Position numbers and translations under genes: made by a program. Below are positions 2,151 to 40,685 of a stretch of 46,717 bases of DNA, in pieces. The notes below the pieces were generated by a model. That model worked only from the letters and a program-made list of their open reading frames with translations, made no database searches and was not told where the DNA came from. The first letter of the stretch is position 1. Every line of letters begins with the position of its first letter. Source of the DNA: a virus; the IMG/VR virus record IMGVR_UViG_3300012985_000014, positions 1-46,717 of that record; one strand, written 5' to 3'.

Positions 2151-2410
2151 TCGACTACTCCGTCCTCATCGACGGCAAGCCGCCGCCGTTCGTGATTCCG
2201 TTCTGCGCTTCGTGCGACATGCCGGTCGAGCTTTTCACGGTCCACCCCGTTCCCGAGCACGACGGCCAGCCGATGTTCGTCGCCGAGGCGTCCTGCCACG
2301 GCAAGACGTCGGGAATCATGATGCCAGTGACCGACTGGGAGAAGCTACAGGCGCTCGGCCACAAGCTGGTCCTGTTTCAGCGTCGGGAGGGCTTCGATTC
2401 CGTCCGCTGA
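2147..2410 (+). CDS. Small putative zinc protein, CHG family member 4
   Basis: The 87-residue protein starts with GTG at 2147, overlapping the preceding stop. It has CASC near residue 20 and CHG near residue 50 with hydrophobic strands on either side, like the members at 164, 622 and 1055. It is the best-formed and most compact family member and directly precedes the terminase gene (stop and next start are one base apart). A role in packaging or host takeover is possible but unproven. Confidence 0.7.
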   Translation: MIDYSVLIDGKPPPFVIPFCASCDMPVELFTVHPVPEHDGQPMFVAEASCHGKTSGIMMPVTDWEKLQALGHKLVLFQRREGFDSVR

Positions 2411-2411
2411 A

Positions 2412-3914
2412 GTGCGCTCTGTCGACGGCCGAGAGGTCGTCTGGGAGCCGCAACCACGGCAAGCGGTCGCTTTGTCGTGCCCGGCCTTCGAACTTTGCTA
2501 TGGCGGGGCAAAGGGGGGCGGAAAAACTGACTTCCTGGTCATGGCGTGCGTCGCGCAACTCGCCCTTTGCCACGCGAAGTGGCTCGCGACGAAGCGAAAG
2601 CAGCGCGGGCGCTACATCATCTTCCGAAAGAACGTCAAGAACCTCGCGGACATCATCCAGCGCGCCGAGGAGCTCTATCCGGTCATTGATCCGGGCGCGA
2701 AATGGAACGTCATGGAGAAGCGCTGGACGTTCACGAGCGGCTACAAGGTCGATTTCGCGCACCTCGACGGCCCGAACGACCACCTTGGCTATCACGGCCA
2801 GGAATTGACCGGAGTGGGCATCGACCAAGCCGAGGAAATCGCCAACGAGGTGCGCCTGTTCCTGGTGATGCAGGTCCGATCGAAGGACGCCGACATGCGG
2901 AAGCTGCTTTTCGTGCGCTACACGGCGAATCCGGGCGGCCCGCACGCGGAATGGGTGAAGAGAGACTTTATTCAGGGCTGTCGCCCGCACAACACGGTGA
3001 TCAAGTCGACGGTCAAGCTCCGAAACGGCACCCCGCGCGAGGTGACGAAGGCTTTCGTACCCGCCACGCTCTACGACAACAAGTACCTAGCCTCTGACGG
3101 AACGTACGAGGCCAACATGATGGCGCTTCCTGAGCACCTTCGCCGGATGTACCTCGAAGGCGACTGGGACGTTGTCATCGGCGCCTACTTCGCGAACCTG
3201 TGGAGCCGCGACCTGCATGTCATCCCGTCGTTTTCCATCCCCGGGCACTGGCCCATCAAGTTCGGCCTCGACTGGGGCACCACGGCGCCAGCCTGCACGC
3301 TCTGGGGCACGCGCGACAACGACGGCAACGTCTACATCATCGACGAGCTGTGGCGACCCGGCATCACCGGCCGCACGTACGGCGCGGCGATGCTGAAGCG
3401 CCTGGAACTCCAGAAGTGGAGCGTCGAACGCAAGTGGACCGCCAAGGACATGTACGGGCTCATCGACCGCCAGGCCATGGCAGCGACCGCCGCCGACGTC
3501 GGGAGCGGCGGCTCTGCCACGCCAGCGGCCGGCATTCAGTGGTGCGGGTGGCGCATCTTCCCCGCGAACAAGGACCGCGCGGCCGGGAACGAGCAAGTGC
3601 TGGAGCGACTGCTCAAGAAGCCGAACGGAAAGCCGTCGCTGTTCATCTTCGGCGACCGCTGCCCGAATCTGATCCGAACGCTGCCCGTGCTGATGTCCGA
3701 CCCGCGCAACCCGGAAGACGTCGACCCCGATGCCCCGGATGACCACGCGTTCGATGCGCTGAAATACCTGCTGCTCGACTGGCCCGTGCAGGGAACGCGC
3801 CCGAAGGACAAGCAGGGCGACCAGGACGTCGAGCGTTGGCTCGCGATGGCTGCTCGACGGAAAGAACTATCTGAATCGCCCGGTGACACCATCACCACGG
3901 GCTACGGAGACTGA
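2412..3914 (+). CDS. terL: Terminase large subunit
   Basis: This 500-residue ATP-driven DNA-packaging motor cuts concatemeric phage DNA and pumps it through the portal. The ATPase domain has a Walker A site GGAKGGGKT at residues 31-39 and a Walker B-like segment GVGIDQAEE at about 134-142. The coupling motif TANPGG follows at 171-176 with W-V-K after it. The nuclease half begins around FGLDWGTT (Asp near 287) and ends with D-D-H-A-F-D-A-L-K-Y, the usual C-terminal Asp-containing motif. Length is normal. Start is GTG at 2412 and the portal gene follows after two bases. Confidence 0.95.
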   Translation: MRSVDGREVVWEPQPRQAVALSCPAFELCYGGAKGGGKTDFLVMACVAQLALCHAKWLATKRKQRGRYIIFRKNVKNLADIIQRAEELYPVIDPGAKWNVMEKRWTFTSGYKVDFAHLDGPNDHLGYHGQELTGVGIDQAEEIANEVRLFLVMQVRSKDADMRKLLFVRYTANPGGPHAEWVKRDFIQGCRPHNTVIKSTVKLRNGTPREVTKAFVPATLYDNKYLASDGTYEANMMALPEHLRRMYLEGDWDVVIGAYFANLWSRDLHVIPSFSIPGHWPIKFGLDWGTTAPACTLWGTRDNDGNVYIIDELWRPGITGRTYGAAMLKRLELQKWSVERKWTAKDMYGLIDRQAMAATAADVGSGGSATPAAGIQWCGWRIFPANKDRAAGNEQVLERLLKKPNGKPSLFIFGDRCPNLIRTLPVLMSDPRNPEDVDPDAPDDHAFDALKYLLLDWPVQGTRPKDKQGDQDVERWLAMAARRKELSESPGDTITTGYGD

Positions 3915-3916
3915 AC

Positions 3917-6259
3917 ATGGACATGCCCCCTCTCGACCAGCCTCCCGCCGACGACGCCCCGCCCGACGTTGGCGCGCTCACCGTCCAGTTGCAGCCTCCG
4001 CGCGCCGCCCCCGTCGCCGGCAAGCCGTCCGAAGACACCAACATGGTCCCGTCGCTCAACGAGGAGGAGCAGAAGAAGCTCGTCGAGCAAGTGATACGGG
4101 ACTTCGACGCTGACGTCGACAGCCGCGAGCCTCGAATGCGCCGGCTGAAAGAGGCACAGGGCCTCTACGCCTCCGTCATGAAGGCGAAGTCATTCCCCTT
4201 CAAGAACGCCGCCAACGTGAACCTGCCATTGCTTGCGCGCCCGTGGCTCCAGATTCAGGGGCGCCTCTACGACATGGTCTGGCCGGCCGACGGCAAGGTC
4301 TTCTACTCGTCGTTCACGTCCATCAGCGACGCGCCAGTTGCCGCCGCGACGGAGACGTTCGGCAACAGCTACATCCGCCACAAAATGCCCGAGATGTCCC
4401 AGGGCATGGACGACACGCTCCACCAGACGTGCGGCTACGGCTCGGGGTTCCGGAAGACGTACTGGAACAGCTACGAGGGCCGTGTCTGCTCCGACTGGAT
4501 TCCCATCGAGGACTTCGTCGTCGCCCACGGCCAGCGCAGCCAGGACCCGTCGATGCGCGACGTCCCGCGCTACACCCACGTGCAGCGCCCCACCTACTTC
4601 AAGATGGAGGGATACTCCGACAAGGGCATCTACGCCAACTTCGACCTGGTCAAACTGACCGCTCCCGACCAGAAGGCCGACAGCGAGTTCAAGCAGCAGC
4701 TCGCGAAAATCGACGGCCACAGCGCCTCGACGAGCGAAACCACCATCGAGTCGCAAGAGCGGATGGTGCTGGAGCAGTACTTCGAGTGGCGCACGCCCGA
4801 CGCGCCAGACGTACACCCCGCTTTCGACGGCAAGCCCCACGCCGTTGTCGCGACCGTCGATGAGCAGTCGCGCACGCTTCTGCGCCTCATCATCCGCGAG
4901 GAGCCCGACCCCGACGATTTCGCGCGCTTCACGAAGGAACAAGCCGCATTCGACGGGCACATGCAGCAGCTCGAGGCGTTCGTTCGCGAGGCGCAGGCCG
5001 CGCAGACGGTGCAGGACGCTGCCGCCGCTGCTGGCCTGCCGGTAGATCCGAACTTCCAGCCTCCGCAACCTCCTGCGCCGCCGCCCGGCCTGAAGACCGA
5101 CGAATCAGGCATGCCGACGCCGCCCGAGCCTCAGCGCGTGCGGCCTATCAGCCTGTTCACGCACTACCGCGCGTTCCCCTCGGAGGGCTTCTACGGCCTC
5201 GGCCTCTGCGACTTCATGTCGGGGGCGAACAAGGCCGTGAACACGATGCTCAACCAGACCATCGACCGCGGCACGCTCCAAATCAGCATGCCGGGGTTCA
5301 TCTCGGCGCAGCTGAAGGGGCAGCGCGGCGCCATCAACGTCCAGCCGGGCGAGATGATCGAAGTCGACGCGCCCATGGGCTCGCTGAAAGACGGGATGTT
5401 CTTCCCGCAGTTCCCGCCCGCCGACCCGTCGCTGATGCGGACGGTGCAGCTGCTCCTCGAAGAGTCGGACAAGATGGTCGCCAGCTCCGACATGATGAGC
5501 GGGCAGACCTCGGGGGCGAACCGCACCGCGAAGGAAGCGCAAATCCTCAGCGAGCAGATGATGATGCAAATCACCGTCCTTGCGAGGCGCATCAAGGAAG
5601 CCTTCAAGCACGAGCTGGACAAAATCTGGCGGTGCTGGGGCGTGTTCCTTCCCGACGAGGAAGTCGTCGACCTCATCGGCCACGACAACGAGCCGACGCA
5701 GGTTCGCATCGGCCGCGCGATGTTCACGCCGAACGCGCACGTCACGCCCGCCGCCGACCCGCGCACCAAGACGCAGCGCCGCGAGGAGGCGATGCAGGTA
5801 TTCGGGCTCGTGACGAACAACCCGTACCTGATGAACCAGCCGCCGCCAGTGCGCGACGCGCTGATGCGCCAGGTAACCGAGGACGTGCTGCGCGTCCACG
5901 GCGCCGAGAAGCTGGTCAAGCTGCTCCCGCCGCCCGAGCCCGTGCAACCGCCGCCCCCTCCCCCGCCAGCGCCGTACTGGGAGGAAAACGCGAGCTTCGT
6001 CCGTGGCCAGGACCATCCCGTGCACAAGGATGACAACGACCAAGAGCACATTGCCGGGCACATGAGCATCAAGAACGGCCCGGCCGGCGCGGTCATGGAC
6101 AAGGCAGGGAAGGACATGCTCGACCGCCACATCAGGTTCCACGTGGCACAGGACATTGAGAAGACCGGCCAGAAGGTGCAGCAGCTTCATCAGCACTTGA
6201 TGGGCGGGACGGTACAGCCGGCGCCGATGCCTCCGATGATGAACGGAGCGCCGCAGTGA
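3917..6259 (+). CDS. Portal protein
   Basis: This 780-residue protein forms the ring at one capsid vertex through which DNA passes. Characteristic features are the N-terminal helical region, the segment F-P-F-K-N-A-A-N-V-N-L-P-L near residue 95, and the F-Y-G-L-G motif near residue 420. A long helix with R-T-A-K-E-A near 540 fits the stem and crown of large podoviral portals. A proline-rich stretch near 675-690 leads to a His-rich tail (H-I-A-G-H, H-I-R-F-H). Size and position after the terminase support the call. Confidence 0.9.
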   Translation: MDMPPLDQPPADDAPPDVGALTVQLQPPRAAPVAGKPSEDTNMVPSLNEEEQKKLVEQVIRDFDADVDSREPRMRRLKEAQGLYASVMKAKSFPFKNAANVNLPLLARPWLQIQGRLYDMVWPADGKVFYSSFTSISDAPVAAATETFGNSYIRHKMPEMSQGMDDTLHQTCGYGSGFRKTYWNSYEGRVCSDWIPIEDFVVAHGQRSQDPSMRDVPRYTHVQRPTYFKMEGYSDKGIYANFDLVKLTAPDQKADSEFKQQLAKIDGHSASTSETTIESQERMVLEQYFEWRTPDAPDVHPAFDGKPHAVVATVDEQSRTLLRLIIREEPDPDDFARFTKEQAAFDGHMQQLEAFVREAQAAQTVQDAAAAAGLPVDPNFQPPQPPAPPPGLKTDESGMPTPPEPQRVRPISLFTHYRAFPSEGFYGLGLCDFMSGANKAVNTMLNQTIDRGTLQISMPGFISAQLKGQRGAINVQPGEMIEVDAPMGSLKDGMFFPQFPPADPSLMRTVQLLLEESDKMVASSDMMSGQTSGANRTAKEAQILSEQMMMQITVLARRIKEAFKHELDKIWRCWGVFLPDEEVVDLIGHDNEPTQVRIGRAMFTPNAHVTPAADPRTKTQRREEAMQVFGLVTNNPYLMNQPPPVRDALMRQVTEDVLRVHGAEKLVKLLPPPEPVQPPPPPPPAPYWEENASFVRGQDHPVHKDDNDQEHIAGHMSIKNGPAGAVMDKAGKDMLDRHIRFHVAQDIEKTGQKVQQLHQHLMGGTVQPAPMPPMMNGAPQ

Positions 6260-7275: not shown

Positions 7276-8191
7276 AGGACAGACCGACGACACCAGCGAC
7301 GCGGAAGACCTTGCGGCGCTGAGAGGCGCGGCAGATGGCGCCCCGGCCGCCGACAAGGAGCCGGACGGCCCCGCTGTACCGCCCGCGCCCGAACCGGGTA
7401 AGTCCGTGTCCGTCGAGGCACCGAAGTCGCGCCGCCAGCGCGCCGAGGAGGAGCGCAAGGCAGAGTTGACGCGGATGTCCGAGACCATCAAGGAACTGCG
7501 CGAGCGGGACTCTGCGCGTGATCGCCAGCTTGGCGAGCTGACCGGCCACCTGTCGGCGCTCGCCCAGCAGCGCGCGGCCGCGCCCCCGGTACAGGCATAC
7601 CAGCCGCCCCCGCCGCAGATTCCTGATCCGCGCGACCTTCGCCGGCAGGCGCTCAAGGCGCTGGACGCCAGAGACATGGACCAGTATCACGAGTTGCTCG
7701 AGCAGGCGAACACCGCCGCGACGATGCGCGCCATCGCGCCTGCGCTACAGCGCGTGGCCCAGCAGCCGCAAGCCCCCGTCCAGCAGCAGGTGCCCGCCGA
7801 GTTAATGGCGTACTTCGCGGCCTACCCGGACGTGGCGACGCACCCGTCTCGAGACAAGCTGCTGATGGCCAAGAACGCCGAGCTGGAGGCGCTCGGGTAC
7901 CCGGAAGGCCCGGGGCGCGTGAAGGCCGTGTTCGACCATGTCCAGGCGACCGTGAAGGCCGGCAAGGGCGCGCAGCGACAGGCCCCTGGGTTCGATCCGA
8001 GCAGCGCCGCCGCGCTATCGGGCACGCCCACCGCCCGCCCGGCTGGGGGCAGCAGCGGCCCCGGCAAGGGCGAGCCGCGCGTCGAGCTGAACGCCGAGGA
8101 GCGCCGCATGTGGAAGGCGGCGGGATTCACCGACGAGACGGAGCTGGCGCGGTACGTCGCGCAGTCGAATCCGGGTCGCGTTCTCCGCTGA
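7265..8191 (+). CDS. Scaffold-like head assembly protein
   Basis: This 308-residue acidic protein is rich in Ala, Gln, Pro and Glu. A coiled coil spans about residues 57-105 (R-Q-R-A-E-E-E-R... to L-A-Q-Q-R) and a helical region about 115-165. The C-terminal helix E-L-N-A-E-E-R-R-M-W-K-A-A-G-F-T is typical of podoviral scaffold proteins. It lies just upstream of the head genes and overlaps the co-chaperonin by 11 bases. No protease motif is seen. The call rests on composition and position. Confidence 0.65.
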   Translation: MLLEGQTDDTSDAEDLAALRGAADGAPAADKEPDGPAVPPAPEPGKSVSVEAPKSRRQRAEEERKAELTRMSETIKELRERDSARDRQLGELTGHLSALAQQRAAAPPVQAYQPPPPQIPDPRDLRRQALKALDARDMDQYHELLEQANTAATMRAIAPALQRVAQQPQAPVQQQVPAELMAYFAAYPDVATHPSRDKLLMAKNAELEALGYPEGPGRVKAVFDHVQATVKAGKGAQRQAPGFDPSSAAALSGTPTARPAGGSSGPGKGEPRVELNAEERRMWKAAGFTDETELARYVAQSNPGRVLR

Positions 8192-38248: not shown

Positions 38249-38674
38249 TCAGCTATGAATCCCGCAGGGTAGCAGCAAGCAGCACGGCCCCTTGCGCCCC
38301 GGGTACGCGCAGCGAATGCCAGATGCGACCTCGCGCAGGACGCGGGCGTGAACCTCGGCGCGCGTCTCGAGGCCGCGCTCTTCGGCGCGGTCCTCGCGTT
38401 CCTGGCGGGCGGCCTTCGCGCACGTCTTGCACCGACGGTACCGGCCGTAGTCCGTGAGCGGGTGACCCTTGAGGCAGAAGCCCGACTTCTTCCACGGCAC
38501 GAAGTTCGTCTTCAGCCGGTGGCGCGCCTGGTAGATGCATGCCGCGACCGCGTTGCGCGTCCACTTCCCGCCGAGGCGCGCCGCTGCTTGAGCCGCCGTC
38601 AGCCCTTCGAATTCGATCAACTGCGCGACTTTGCGCTGGCGGGGCGTGAGGCGTGGCAGGTCTTCGAGGGTCAC
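38249..38674 (-). CDS. Sigma-region-4-like HTH and zinc-finger protein
   Basis: GTG 38674 overlaps the exonuclease-annealase stop (GTGA) and gives 141 residues. Residues 9-55 (L-T-P-R-Q-R-K-V-A-Q-L-I...A-A-Q-A-A-A-R-L-G) form a LuxR/sigma-4-type helix-turn-helix. Then C-L-K-G-H-P-L and C-K-T-C make a zinc finger. Several cysteines end the protein. It is probably a transcription regulator or DNA-binding accessory factor of the recombination operon. Confidence 0.6.
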   Translation of the reverse strand: MTLEDLPRLTPRQRKVAQLIEFEGLTAAQAAARLGGKWTRNAVAACIYQARHRLKTNFVPWKKSGFCLKGHPLTDYGRYRRCKTCAKAARQEREDRAEERGLETRAEVHARVLREVASGIRCAYPGRKGPCCLLLPCGIHS

Positions 38675-40236
38675 GCGCCTTCCATCTCCTCGAAGCTGTA
38701 GGCGCCCATCGTGGCGTCGGGGTACACCTGGCGCGCGAGCTTCGACGTTGCCCGCCAGACGCACATGTCCTCGGGGTTCTTGTCCCAGCCGCCGCCCGGC
38801 TTGAGCAAGCCCGCGCGCTTCGCCATCTCCAGCGTGTACGTGCGGCGCTCCTCCTTGGGCGCGCCCTTGCGCTTTGTGACGGCGGTGGCGGCCTCGGGCG
38901 AGACGTCTTCGAGGTAGAAATACTCGCAGTCAGGGTGACGCTTGGCCATCGCCACGAGCAACTGCGCGGGCAAGGTCAGCTTGCCTTGGATGTCCTGCAT
39001 CAGTTCCATCGCCGCCGAGGGGGACAGGCCGAAGTCCTTCCCGCGTGCCATGACCATCAGCGCCTTGTCGACGGTGCCGAACTTCGTCGAGAAGCGACTT
39101 TCGATCGCGCGCTGGGCGAACCAGTAGAGCCCGCGCATGCCGGTCGGCTGGAGGTTCTCGTCGAACTGCGCGAGCGCCAGCGACTTCTCGTCGAGCTTCG
39201 CCGGCTGGGGCGCCATGACCATCTGACCGCCGCCCGCCCCGCCGTTGACGGCACCCGAAGGCACATTGACCGGCGGCGGGGCGGGTTTCGGTTGTTCCAC
39301 CGGCTGACCCGTAGTCGTAGCTCCGGAGTCGGCGGGAGCAGCTTGCGGGCCTGGGCCCGGCGAAATCATGTTCTCGAACTCGGCGTCCTCTGGCTGGTCT
39401 TCGGTCAGCGGCATGGGCTTTCGCTCCTCGTAGATTTCATCGAACTTGATGGGAATGTCGTACTTGAGCGCGACCAGCTTCTTCGCCAGCATCACGTCGG
39501 CCTCGGCGCGCAACAGCTTGTCGTGAATCTTCTTCGGCGCCTTCCCGTCGGCGGTCCGCCAGTAGGGGTCGGTCGCCACCTTGACCAGGTTCTTGGCATC
39601 GGCGTACAGGTCCGTGACGTTGCCGTAGCGCTGGAGCAGCTCCGCGCCGAGCGTCGCGCCGATGCCGTCCACGCCCTTAACGTTGTCGGACTTGTCGCCC
39701 ATGAGCGCCAGCAGGTCGCCGATCTGATGTGGCGCTACGCCGAACTTCTTAATGACGGCGTCGCGGTCCATCCGCTCCCACGTCCGCGTCGACAGCATCG
39801 TGACCATCTCGGCCGAGAGTTGGCACAGGTCTTTGTCGGGGCTCGCGATGGTGACGGGGTGGCTGGCCAGGACAGCGATGTCCGCCGCGCTGGCGATGAC
39901 GTCGTCGGCCTCGTAGCCGTCGAACTGCCACACCAAGTAGCCGTCACGGCGCAGCCGATCCTTGAGCCTGTCGAACTCTTCGAAGAAGCTCGCCGGCTTC
40001 TGTTCGCGCGTCGACTTGTACTCGGGCGACAGTTCCTTGCGCCAGTTCGTGCGGCTGTCGCAGCAGATGGCAATCAGCGCGCCGGGAACGGCGTCGACGC
40101 AGCGGCGTACCGACGACAAGACGATGTCATGGACCTTCGACACCGGCTCCGACTCATGAACGACGTGATGGCTCGCGTGATACAAGGCCGACAGGTCGAT
40201 CAGCAGGACGGGCGGTTTCTGTTCTTGCTGGCTCAT
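38671..40236 (-). CDS. Fused 5'-3' exonuclease and RecT/Bet-like annealing protein
   Basis: ATG 40236 (ATGA overlap) gives 521 residues. The first 270 are a PolA-type 5'-3' exonuclease: L-L-I-D (D14), C-C-D (D60) with Y-K-S-T-R, Y-E-A-D-D (E109, D111, D112), S-P-D-K-D-L-C-Q-L and G-D-K-S-D-N-V-K-G-V-D-G-I-G, the H3TH motif. A Pro/Gly-rich linker (about 275-345) follows. Residues about 350-521 resemble phage RecT-like annealing proteins: A-R-G-K-D-F-G-L-S-P, I-Q-G-K-L-T-L-P, then M-A-K-R-A-G-L, W...N-P-E-D-M and R-A-T-S-K-L-A-R-Q-V-Y-P-D-A-T-M-G-A-Y. It would both resect and anneal DNA ends. Confidence 0.8.
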   Translation of the reverse strand: MSQQEQKPPVLLIDLSALYHASHHVVHESEPVSKVHDIVLSSVRRCVDAVPGALIAICCDSRTNWRKELSPEYKSTREQKPASFFEEFDRLKDRLRRDGYLVWQFDGYEADDVIASAADIAVLASHPVTIASPDKDLCQLSAEMVTMLSTRTWERMDRDAVIKKFGVAPHQIGDLLALMGDKSDNVKGVDGIGATLGAELLQRYGNVTDLYADAKNLVKVATDPYWRTADGKAPKKIHDKLLRAEADVMLAKKLVALKYDIPIKFDEIYEERKPMPLTEDQPEDAEFENMISPGPGPQAAPADSGATTTGQPVEQPKPAPPPVNVPSGAVNGGAGGGQMVMAPQPAKLDEKSLALAQFDENLQPTGMRGLYWFAQRAIESRFSTKFGTVDKALMVMARGKDFGLSPSAAMELMQDIQGKLTLPAQLLVAMAKRHPDCEYFYLEDVSPEAATAVTKRKGAPKEERRTYTLEMAKRAGLLKPGGGWDKNPEDMCVWRATSKLARQVYPDATMGAYSFEEMEGA

Positions 40237-40685
40237 GCTGCCCTCGCTGCGCTTCGGGCGATGCGCTGCCTGGCGATCTTGCACGCCCGACAGTGGCGCT
40301 GCCTCTTGGCCGCAACATAGTAGGTGTTGACCGCGTCGTACGGGTGCCCAGCCGGGCAATGTGTCTTCGCCGACTGGATCGCTGCGATTGCCTGCCCCAC
40401 GTTGCCACGCCGCAGGTTCTCTCTTCTCGTGACTGGCTCTAGGTGCGACGGGTTCACGCAGGCGCGGTTGACGCAGCCGCGAGCGCGGACATGGTCGAGA
40501 TCGAGCCCCGCTGGCACCTCGCCTACCATCAGGGAATAGGCGACGCGATGGGCAGGCCGAAGGGAACCGGACACCCAGAAGACGCCGTATCCGTTCGTCA
40601 TCTTCCCTCCGTGCCACAGCCAGCATCCGCGCCCGCCAGCCGGGAATGACACCTTCGACCAAAACCTTTGCTCAAGCACGGTCAT
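40233..40685 (-). CDS. HNH endonuclease with C-terminal zinc finger
   Basis: The 150 residues start R-F-W-S-K-V and contain C-W-L-W-H-G, H-R-V-A-Y, L-D-H-V-R-A-R-G-C-V-N-R-A-C-V-N-P-S-H-L (the HNH_3-type core). The end carries C-P-A-G-H-P-Y...C-R-A-C. It resembles free-standing homing endonucleases. It sits directly upstream of the exonuclease-annealase gene with a 4-base overlap, as if it had been captured in the operon. Confidence 0.8.
   Translation of the reverse strand: MTVLEQRFWSKVSFPAGGRGCWLWHGGKMTNGYGVFWVSGSLRPAHRVAYSLMVGEVPAGLDLDHVRARGCVNRACVNPSHLEPVTRRENLRRGNVGQAIAAIQSAKTHCPAGHPYDAVNTYYVAAKRQRHCRACKIARQRIARSAARAA

Follow-up and report, generated by a model that had tools for sequence, protein, structure and literature searches.

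A family of phage genes that joins a PolA/FEN-type 5' nuclease and a RecT/Redbeta-type annealing domain in one predicted polypeptide

We identified a phage gene in which one open reading frame encodes a predicted PolA/FEN-type 5' nuclease, a linker and a predicted RecT/Redbeta-type annealing domain. The gene is located in IMG/VR record IMGVR_UViG_3300012985_000014, and 'the window' refers below to this whole stretch of 46,717 nt, not to the fusion gene alone. Including the window gene, we detected 78 distinct nuclease–RecT genes in uncultivated phage contigs (58 genes plus 20 from the last scan), and all annealer types together gave 84 distinct fused genes, with four types of annealer, in contigs from many metagenomes. 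We consider it probable that the product is a single-chain phage exonuclease and annealase recombinase, similar to the SynExo/EATR systems, in which the annealer is exchangeable. The 5'-3' resection, the annealing, the hand-over between the two and the role in recombination or replication are all inferred.

The fusion gene occupies positions 38671..40236 on the minus strand and encodes 521 aa, as assigned from the open reading frame, Pfam, PHROG and AlphaFold2. The frame is uninterrupted, with 521 codons and a stop, and starts with an ATG at 40236. The stop-to-stop frame is 666 aa long, and its upstream portion overlaps an HNH endonuclease gene (40233-40685, minus strand; phrog_826, E 2e-48), the end of which runs over the ATG of the fusion gene, an arrangement seen in phage genes with coupled translation. 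Pfam assigned residues 10-166 (39739..40209, minus strand) to the 5'-3' exonuclease N-terminal, resolvase-like/PIN domain (PF02739) and residues 167-266 (39439..39738, minus strand) to the 5'-3' exonuclease C-terminal H3TH/SAM-fold domain (PF01367), which contains the invariant D181 and D184. Residues ~276-349 (39190..39411, minus strand) form a Pro/Gly/Ala-rich linker, predicted to be disordered (pLDDT ~50), which is the fastest-evolving part of the family and is rich in Ala, Pro and Glu across the fused proteins. The annealing domain, residues 350-521 (38674..39189, minus strand), was assigned by PHROG, PDB profile and fold comparison; it stops at the annealing core, without a C-terminal docking domain. 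In the full-length AlphaFold2 model, built with 53 relatives in an alignment that omitted L329 and the near-copy L253, two confident domains were separated by residues ~281-350 at pLDDT ~50. These predictions bear out the preliminary description of the gene as two halves joined by a Pro/Gly linker.

Both Pfam domains of the nuclease half exceeded their curated cut-offs in the window protein: 5_3_exonuc_N gave an E-value of 4e-27 (95.4 bits against a cut-off of 34.3) and 5_3_exonuc an E-value of 4e-20 (72.4 bits against 40). All nine metal-ligand carboxylates are present, namely, D14, D60, E109, D111, D112, D134, D136, D181 and D184. They include the EADD motif of residues 109-112 (39901..39912, minus strand), which is conserved in the fused nucleases and would act together with D14, D60, D134, D136, D181 and D184. 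Across the 64 fusions of the first set, seven carboxylates are invariant and the other two are retained in 63 of 64 proteins, the exceptions being D60E in L058 and D111E in L045; in the 55 aligned members, eight of the nine are invariant and D111 is conserved in at least 90%. By sequence, this half comes nearest to the solved structures of DNA polymerase I, Xni, Taq polymerase and T5 exonuclease, and a Pfam search detected no YqaJ/lambda-Exo-type domain in the fusion protein. The nuclease half is thus confirmed by its sequence as a PolA/FEN-type 5' nuclease, the activity of which is inferred. The carboxylates named in the preliminary description were present as placed or in the expected FEN positions, and its statement that the fold differs from that of lambda Exo and RecE is upheld by the Pfam domains and the related structures. 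A DNA polymerase I fragment was ruled out as the identity of the gene, based on the presence of the annealing domain after the nuclease and the absence of DNA_pol_A from all 37 fusion-bearing contigs searched.

The C-terminal half, at residues ~395-519, matched two PHROG families of RecT-like annealing proteins, phrog_561 (E 6e-16) and phrog_4171 (E 4e-10). The Pfam RecT profile (PF03837) gave 17.8 bits with the window domain, under its curated cut-off of 24; it matched 48 of the 55 fused-family members at E <= 0.01, with a best E-value of 3e-10, and the fused relative L057 passed the cut-off (26.1 bits). When a profile built from the 55 members was searched against the PDB, the sole match was 7UJL, lambda Redbeta (E 7e-5). 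The C-terminal domain modelled alone with AlphaFold2 reached a mean pLDDT of 93, and in a PDB fold search with this model the only match at E <= 0.001 was again 7UJL, the annealing domain of lambda Redbeta (E 2e-4, probability 1.00), with moderate similarity (TM 0.54/0.59). In the profile alignment, W484 (38785..38787, minus strand) and R502 (38731..38733, minus strand), both invariant in all 55 aligned members, are equivalent to W143 and R161 of Redbeta. These Redbeta residues contact the template strand, and mutation of R161 is reported to lower annealing in vivo approximately 1000-fold (PMC9512822). Sequence profiles and the structural model together confirm the C-terminal half as a RecT/Redbeta-type annealing domain, for which single-stranded DNA annealing and ring or filament formation are inferred. 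The RecT-like assignment of the preliminary description therefore holds, and a match of this half to an unrelated family, which would have refuted it, was not observed.

The relatives were collected by alignment-based scans of IMG/VR and a domain scan of the fetched loci. Distinctness of the fused genes was judged on the nuclease core, and close relatives remain among them. A scan of viral contigs with the window nuclease half as a single protein gave no match, because its patterns were too specific, whereas the alignment-based patterns succeeded. Identity of the fused relatives to the window protein falls to about 26-30%; the nearest full-length orthologue described here, L002, is 60% identical and was found in one contig. 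In nine close pairs, dN/dS was 0.06-0.17 for the nuclease and 0.03-0.37 for the RecT domain, and the linker, where measurable, gave 0.2-0.9, above both domains; the more diverged pair of the window and L002 gave values of 0.40, 0.51 and 0.18. Judged from these ratios, both halves are under purifying selection. Several loci near the fusions that appeared to carry the nuclease only were cut by a contig end, as in L050, where the open frame reaches the end of the locus. One locus, L267, has an unfused layout: a standalone RecT-like protein and a PolA-type nuclease are encoded by two genes (2403-3539 and 3773-4882) on the same strand, approximately 0.4 kb apart.

We also searched for the fusion outside the uncultivated phages. 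A bacterial gene was ruled out: the best 80 genome matches cover essentially the nuclease part only and are PolA/Xni-like. Among these 80, the joined match of L143 extends to residue 412, and none of the 80 loci passed the RecT profile, so that no RecT-fused copy was present there. In 682 genomes of two phyla, 17 standalone RecT-like places were found in 15 genomes and none was fused; nine further genomes were empty. Since this genome set is only a sample, prophage copies elsewhere are not excluded. No isolate phage among 50,697 records covered 80% of the window fusion or of the other three fusion types, and no plasmid among 72,556 records covered 80% of the window fusion.

The window also encodes terminase, portal, tail, endolysin and integrase proteins, indicating a tailed, probably temperate phage. 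A 71-nt direct repeat is located at the contig ends (37-107 and 46647-46717; 90% identical, with the differences in a G-run), and the genome is therefore probably complete, with circular permutation or terminal redundancy, although the virus record itself states no completeness. Each of the 37 fusion-bearing contigs has exactly one gene with a 5_3_exonuc_N domain, and none has a YqaJ-type exonuclease (PF09588) or, as noted above, a family A polymerase; some other exonuclease families lay outside the search, and many of these contigs are incomplete or of unknown completeness. SSB genes were found in 12 of the 37 contigs, often directly downstream of the fusion, and no SSB was found in the window. 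Further recurrent neighbours are integrase, DNA methyltransferases, an IstB/DnaC-like ATPase and a DUF559 protein. A RusA-like protein, recognized by eye and without a Pfam match, also recurs near the fusions.

The annealers carried by the nuclease lineage are not confined to RecT, which the preliminary description had missed. The single-strand annealing protein of phrog_3290 is fused to the nuclease in four genes, L071 (E 9e-49), L082 (3e-49), L087 (1e-42) and L169 (assigned with a profile made in this analysis). The C-terminal domain of L042 is Mgm101p (Pfam E 3e-28, above the cut-off, with Rad52_Rad22 just under its own cut-off), and that of L058 is Sak4-like (phrog_124, E 2e-35; AAA_24, E 3e-33). 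In a tree of nuclease domains, the RecT, phrog_3290 and Mgm101 fusions fell in one clade of 65 rows (SH-aLRT 91), separate from the standalone phage nucleases that were sampled and from the bacterial PolA and Xni proteins. In the two non-fused rows inside this clade, L050 and L260, the open frame is truncated at a contig end or close to it. The Sak4 fusion, a single case, lies outside the supported clade. Within the tree, three phrog_3290 fusions group with the RecT fusion L057 (support 97), and the Mgm101 fusion L042 groups with the RecT fusions L014 and L051 (support 97). The exact number of exchanges remains uncertain, because the tree was a quick one with long branches.

Pairwise comparisons revealed traces of the exchange itself. 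The nucleases of L057 (RecT) and L071 (phrog_3290) are 79% identical, while their C-terminal domains lack significant sequence similarity; at the DNA level, homology of 74% continues to L057 position 7079, near the linker end, is lost over the annealer and returns at 7956 with 86%. Similarly, L042 (Mgm101) is 69% identical to L422 and L423 (RecT) over residues 1-307, and their DNA identity of 72% ends at L042 position 3866, with short stretches appearing again from 5250. In two RecT-type pairs, L017/L253 and L039/L040, synonymous divergence of the two halves differs 10-fold or more, which points to recent recombination in the linker. The exchange of annealer cassettes is observed in these comparisons, in which the nuclease and linker form a conserved chassis, as read from the alignments, and the annealer an exchangeable cassette. 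Other proteins with this type of nuclease carry different extensions. In the large viral contigs L319 (3860-5257) and L354 (3983-5563), what appears by eye to be a type-4 (Fe-S) uracil-DNA glycosylase-like domain follows a nuclease of the same type. In L070, L281, L489 and L492, a PolA-type nuclease is followed by a common C-terminal extension of ~170 aa with a motif around CGFYxRxL...PARIWRE, and the extension of L070 had no Pfam or PHROG match.

The fused annealing domain differs from most of its standalone relatives in its C-terminal end. Only 0-13 residues follow the RecT core in 57 of the 58 fused proteins of the first set, and 0-8 in 19 further complete fused genes. In contrast, the standalone RecT relatives L003-L005 have tails of ~85-150 aa, and the tail exceeds ~40 aa in 13 of 15 distinct standalone RecT-like proteins of prokaryote genomes. 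The absence of a tail is not exclusive to the fusions, since the standalone proteins L409 and L419 are also short-tailed, and the comparison hinges on the standalone relatives that were sampled. Redbeta binds lambda Exo through its C-terminal domain, which is required for dsDNA recombination (PMC5052646; PMC9512822). Most simply, the covalent tether would take over this docking role, which is an inference. One of the standalone proteins, encoded by Salinibacter phage 2_1 (L003 3923-4936) and annotated as hypothetical, ends in an SSB-like acidic tip, DADGELPF.

In the mechanism that we propose, the nuclease would degrade the 5' strand from DNA ends, or from nicks or gaps. The annealing domain, held on its flexible linker, would coat the exposed 3' strand at once and in cis, oligomerise and pair the coated strand with a complementary strand, and the tether would replace the docking of lambda exonuclease that is performed in lambda by the Redbeta C-terminal domain. 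What we observed is confined to the identities of the domains, the intact residues, the conserved fusion, the purifying selection, the cassette exchange, the missing tail, and the finding that the contigs examined contain neither a gene of the lambda Exo type nor a polymerase of family A. The coupling of resection and annealing in one chain, as put forward in the preliminary description, remains an inference, with both activities inferred. The best-known role of PolA/FEN-type nucleases is that of a flap endonuclease at nicks and flaps; resection of blunt dsDNA ends is not implied by the nuclease sequence, and biochemical and genetic evidence is absent. The main alternative, which we regard as less likely but serious, reverses the order of the two steps: the annealer would begin by pairing strands, either at forks or during single-strand annealing, after which the nuclease would cut 5' flaps or RNA primers for ligation, a junction-processing rather than a resecting role. 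The type of the nuclease, which is nearest to the 5' nucleases of Pol I, Xni and Taq and has both metal sites fully liganded, is in keeping with such trimming, as is the lack of a family A polymerase in all 37 contigs, so that a phage Pol I does not supply the flap activity. Against this reading, host Pol I can perform flap removal for mid-sized phages. An exonuclease that resects ends usually accompanies RecT in phages (PMC8093625; PMC9772228), and none of the YqaJ type was found in the 37 contigs, which also counts against trimming as the role of the nuclease. Trimming and resection are not mutually exclusive, and both could hold.

It is also conceivable, at a considerably lower level of likelihood, that the fusion serves mainly as a device for co-expression, in which the full-length protein is accompanied by free annealase, produced through a nested linker start or through proteolysis of the linker, and the free annealase is the main working form. 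Of the 64 fusions, 21 have an AGGAG or GGAGG sequence properly spaced ahead of a linker ATG that is in frame, compared with 12.9 +/- 2.2 by synonymous resampling and 5.0 +/- 2.2 by codon shuffling; examples are L037 at aa 300, L015 at aa 381 and L011 at aa 428, numbered in the stop-to-stop frame. However, the signal is absent from most family members, the linker ATGs of the window lack a good Shine-Dalgarno sequence, and the peptide sequence, an acidic run followed by Met, accounts for part of the excess. The independent recruitment of different annealers onto one nuclease indicates in addition that the covalent link itself matters, which argues against this reading. A nested start in the linker is possible and is kept as a lead only; oligomerisation of an annealer that bears a nuclease on each subunit may be problematic, and a nested start would relieve this. 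That a lost stop codon or a misassembly joined two genes can hardly be maintained. No point in its support was found, and it is refuted by the relatives, among which are 84 distinct fused genes, the RecT type alignable over nearly its full length, and the full-length orthologue with 60% identity. The existence of 78 distinct fused genes of the RecT type excludes chance or assembly error, and a stop lost only in the window, with separate genes in related phages, the second outcome that would have overturned the preliminary description, is contradicted by relatives that keep the fusion.

Returning to the single-chain exonuclease and annealase, we tentatively extend it to the whole family, with somewhat less than even confidence in the broader proposal. 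The fusions would represent a widespread phage platform, in which one 5'-nuclease chassis is joined to whichever annealer is available (RecT, the phrog_3290 protein, Mgm101/Rad52 and, separately, Sak4). The tether would replace the exonuclease-docking domain and thereby free the annealer to be swapped by recombination in the linker, and some members may also make free annealase from a nested linker start.

Combinations of RecE with Redbeta, or of Red-alpha with RecT, do not support dsDNA recombination (PMC5052646), indicating that in lambda-type systems the annealer must recognize its own exonuclease. How a trimeric exonuclease is matched to an oligomeric annealase has yet to be explained (PMC9512822). 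In a natural single chain, both the pairing and a 1 : 1 stoichiometry are fixed. The replacement of RecT by phrog_3290 or Mgm101 proteins on near-identical nucleases amounts to a natural experiment on whether a tether suffices for partner compatibility. The single chain also provides a design, open to direct testing, for recombineering enzymes that could be carried into bacteria to which two-component systems transfer poorly. The results suggest that some uncultivated phages recombine with a kind of enzyme unlike the textbook one, and that one-piece machinery is widespread.

No description of such a fusion was found in the open-access literature; older key work lay outside that scope, and a prior description is not excluded. 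Within these limits, the single-chain form with a FEN chassis and exchangeable annealers appears to be undescribed. To this extent, the claim of a new architecture in the preliminary description is supported for the single chain, and the modularity is a further new element; the pairing of a 5' exonuclease with an annealer was already known. In bacteriophage T7, the gp6 exonuclease, a FEN-type 5'-3' exonuclease distinct from the lambda type, acts in trans with the annealing SSB gp2.5 in phage recombination. The T7 proteins are separate, and gp2.5 is an OB-fold SSB rather than a protein of RecT or Rad52 fold. Given this precedent, what is new lies in the covalent and modular architecture rather than in the pairing of the two activities.

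The nuclease half shares its two Pfam domains and nine carboxylates with the Pol I 5' nuclease domain, Xni/ExoIX, T5 FEN and T4 RNase H; unlike the polymerase-linked form, the fusion has no attached polymerase domain, and it covalently carries an annealing domain. The annealing half has a core homologous to the standalone phrog_561-like RecT proteins of Salinibacter phages, Synechococcus phage S-LBS1 and Arthrobacter phage EvePickles (26-32% identity by tblastn), which are separate genes with C-terminal tails; the neighbouring nuclease is RecE-like in EvePickles and VRR-NUC in S-LBS1. As in lambda Red (lambda Exo/Redbeta) and the RecE/RecT system of Rac, a 5'-3' nuclease is combined with an annealer of RecT/Redbeta fold in a phage recombination module. 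The fusion is not a member of the two-component SynExo/EATR systems, since it is one open frame here and in 83 further fusions, but it may work alike. It differs from lambda Red and RecET in being one polypeptide instead of two, in the type of its nuclease, which is FEN/PolA where lambda Exo and RecE are PD-(D/E)XK enzymes, in lacking the C-terminal domain with which Redbeta docks lambda Exo, and in the swapping of its annealer among unrelated families.
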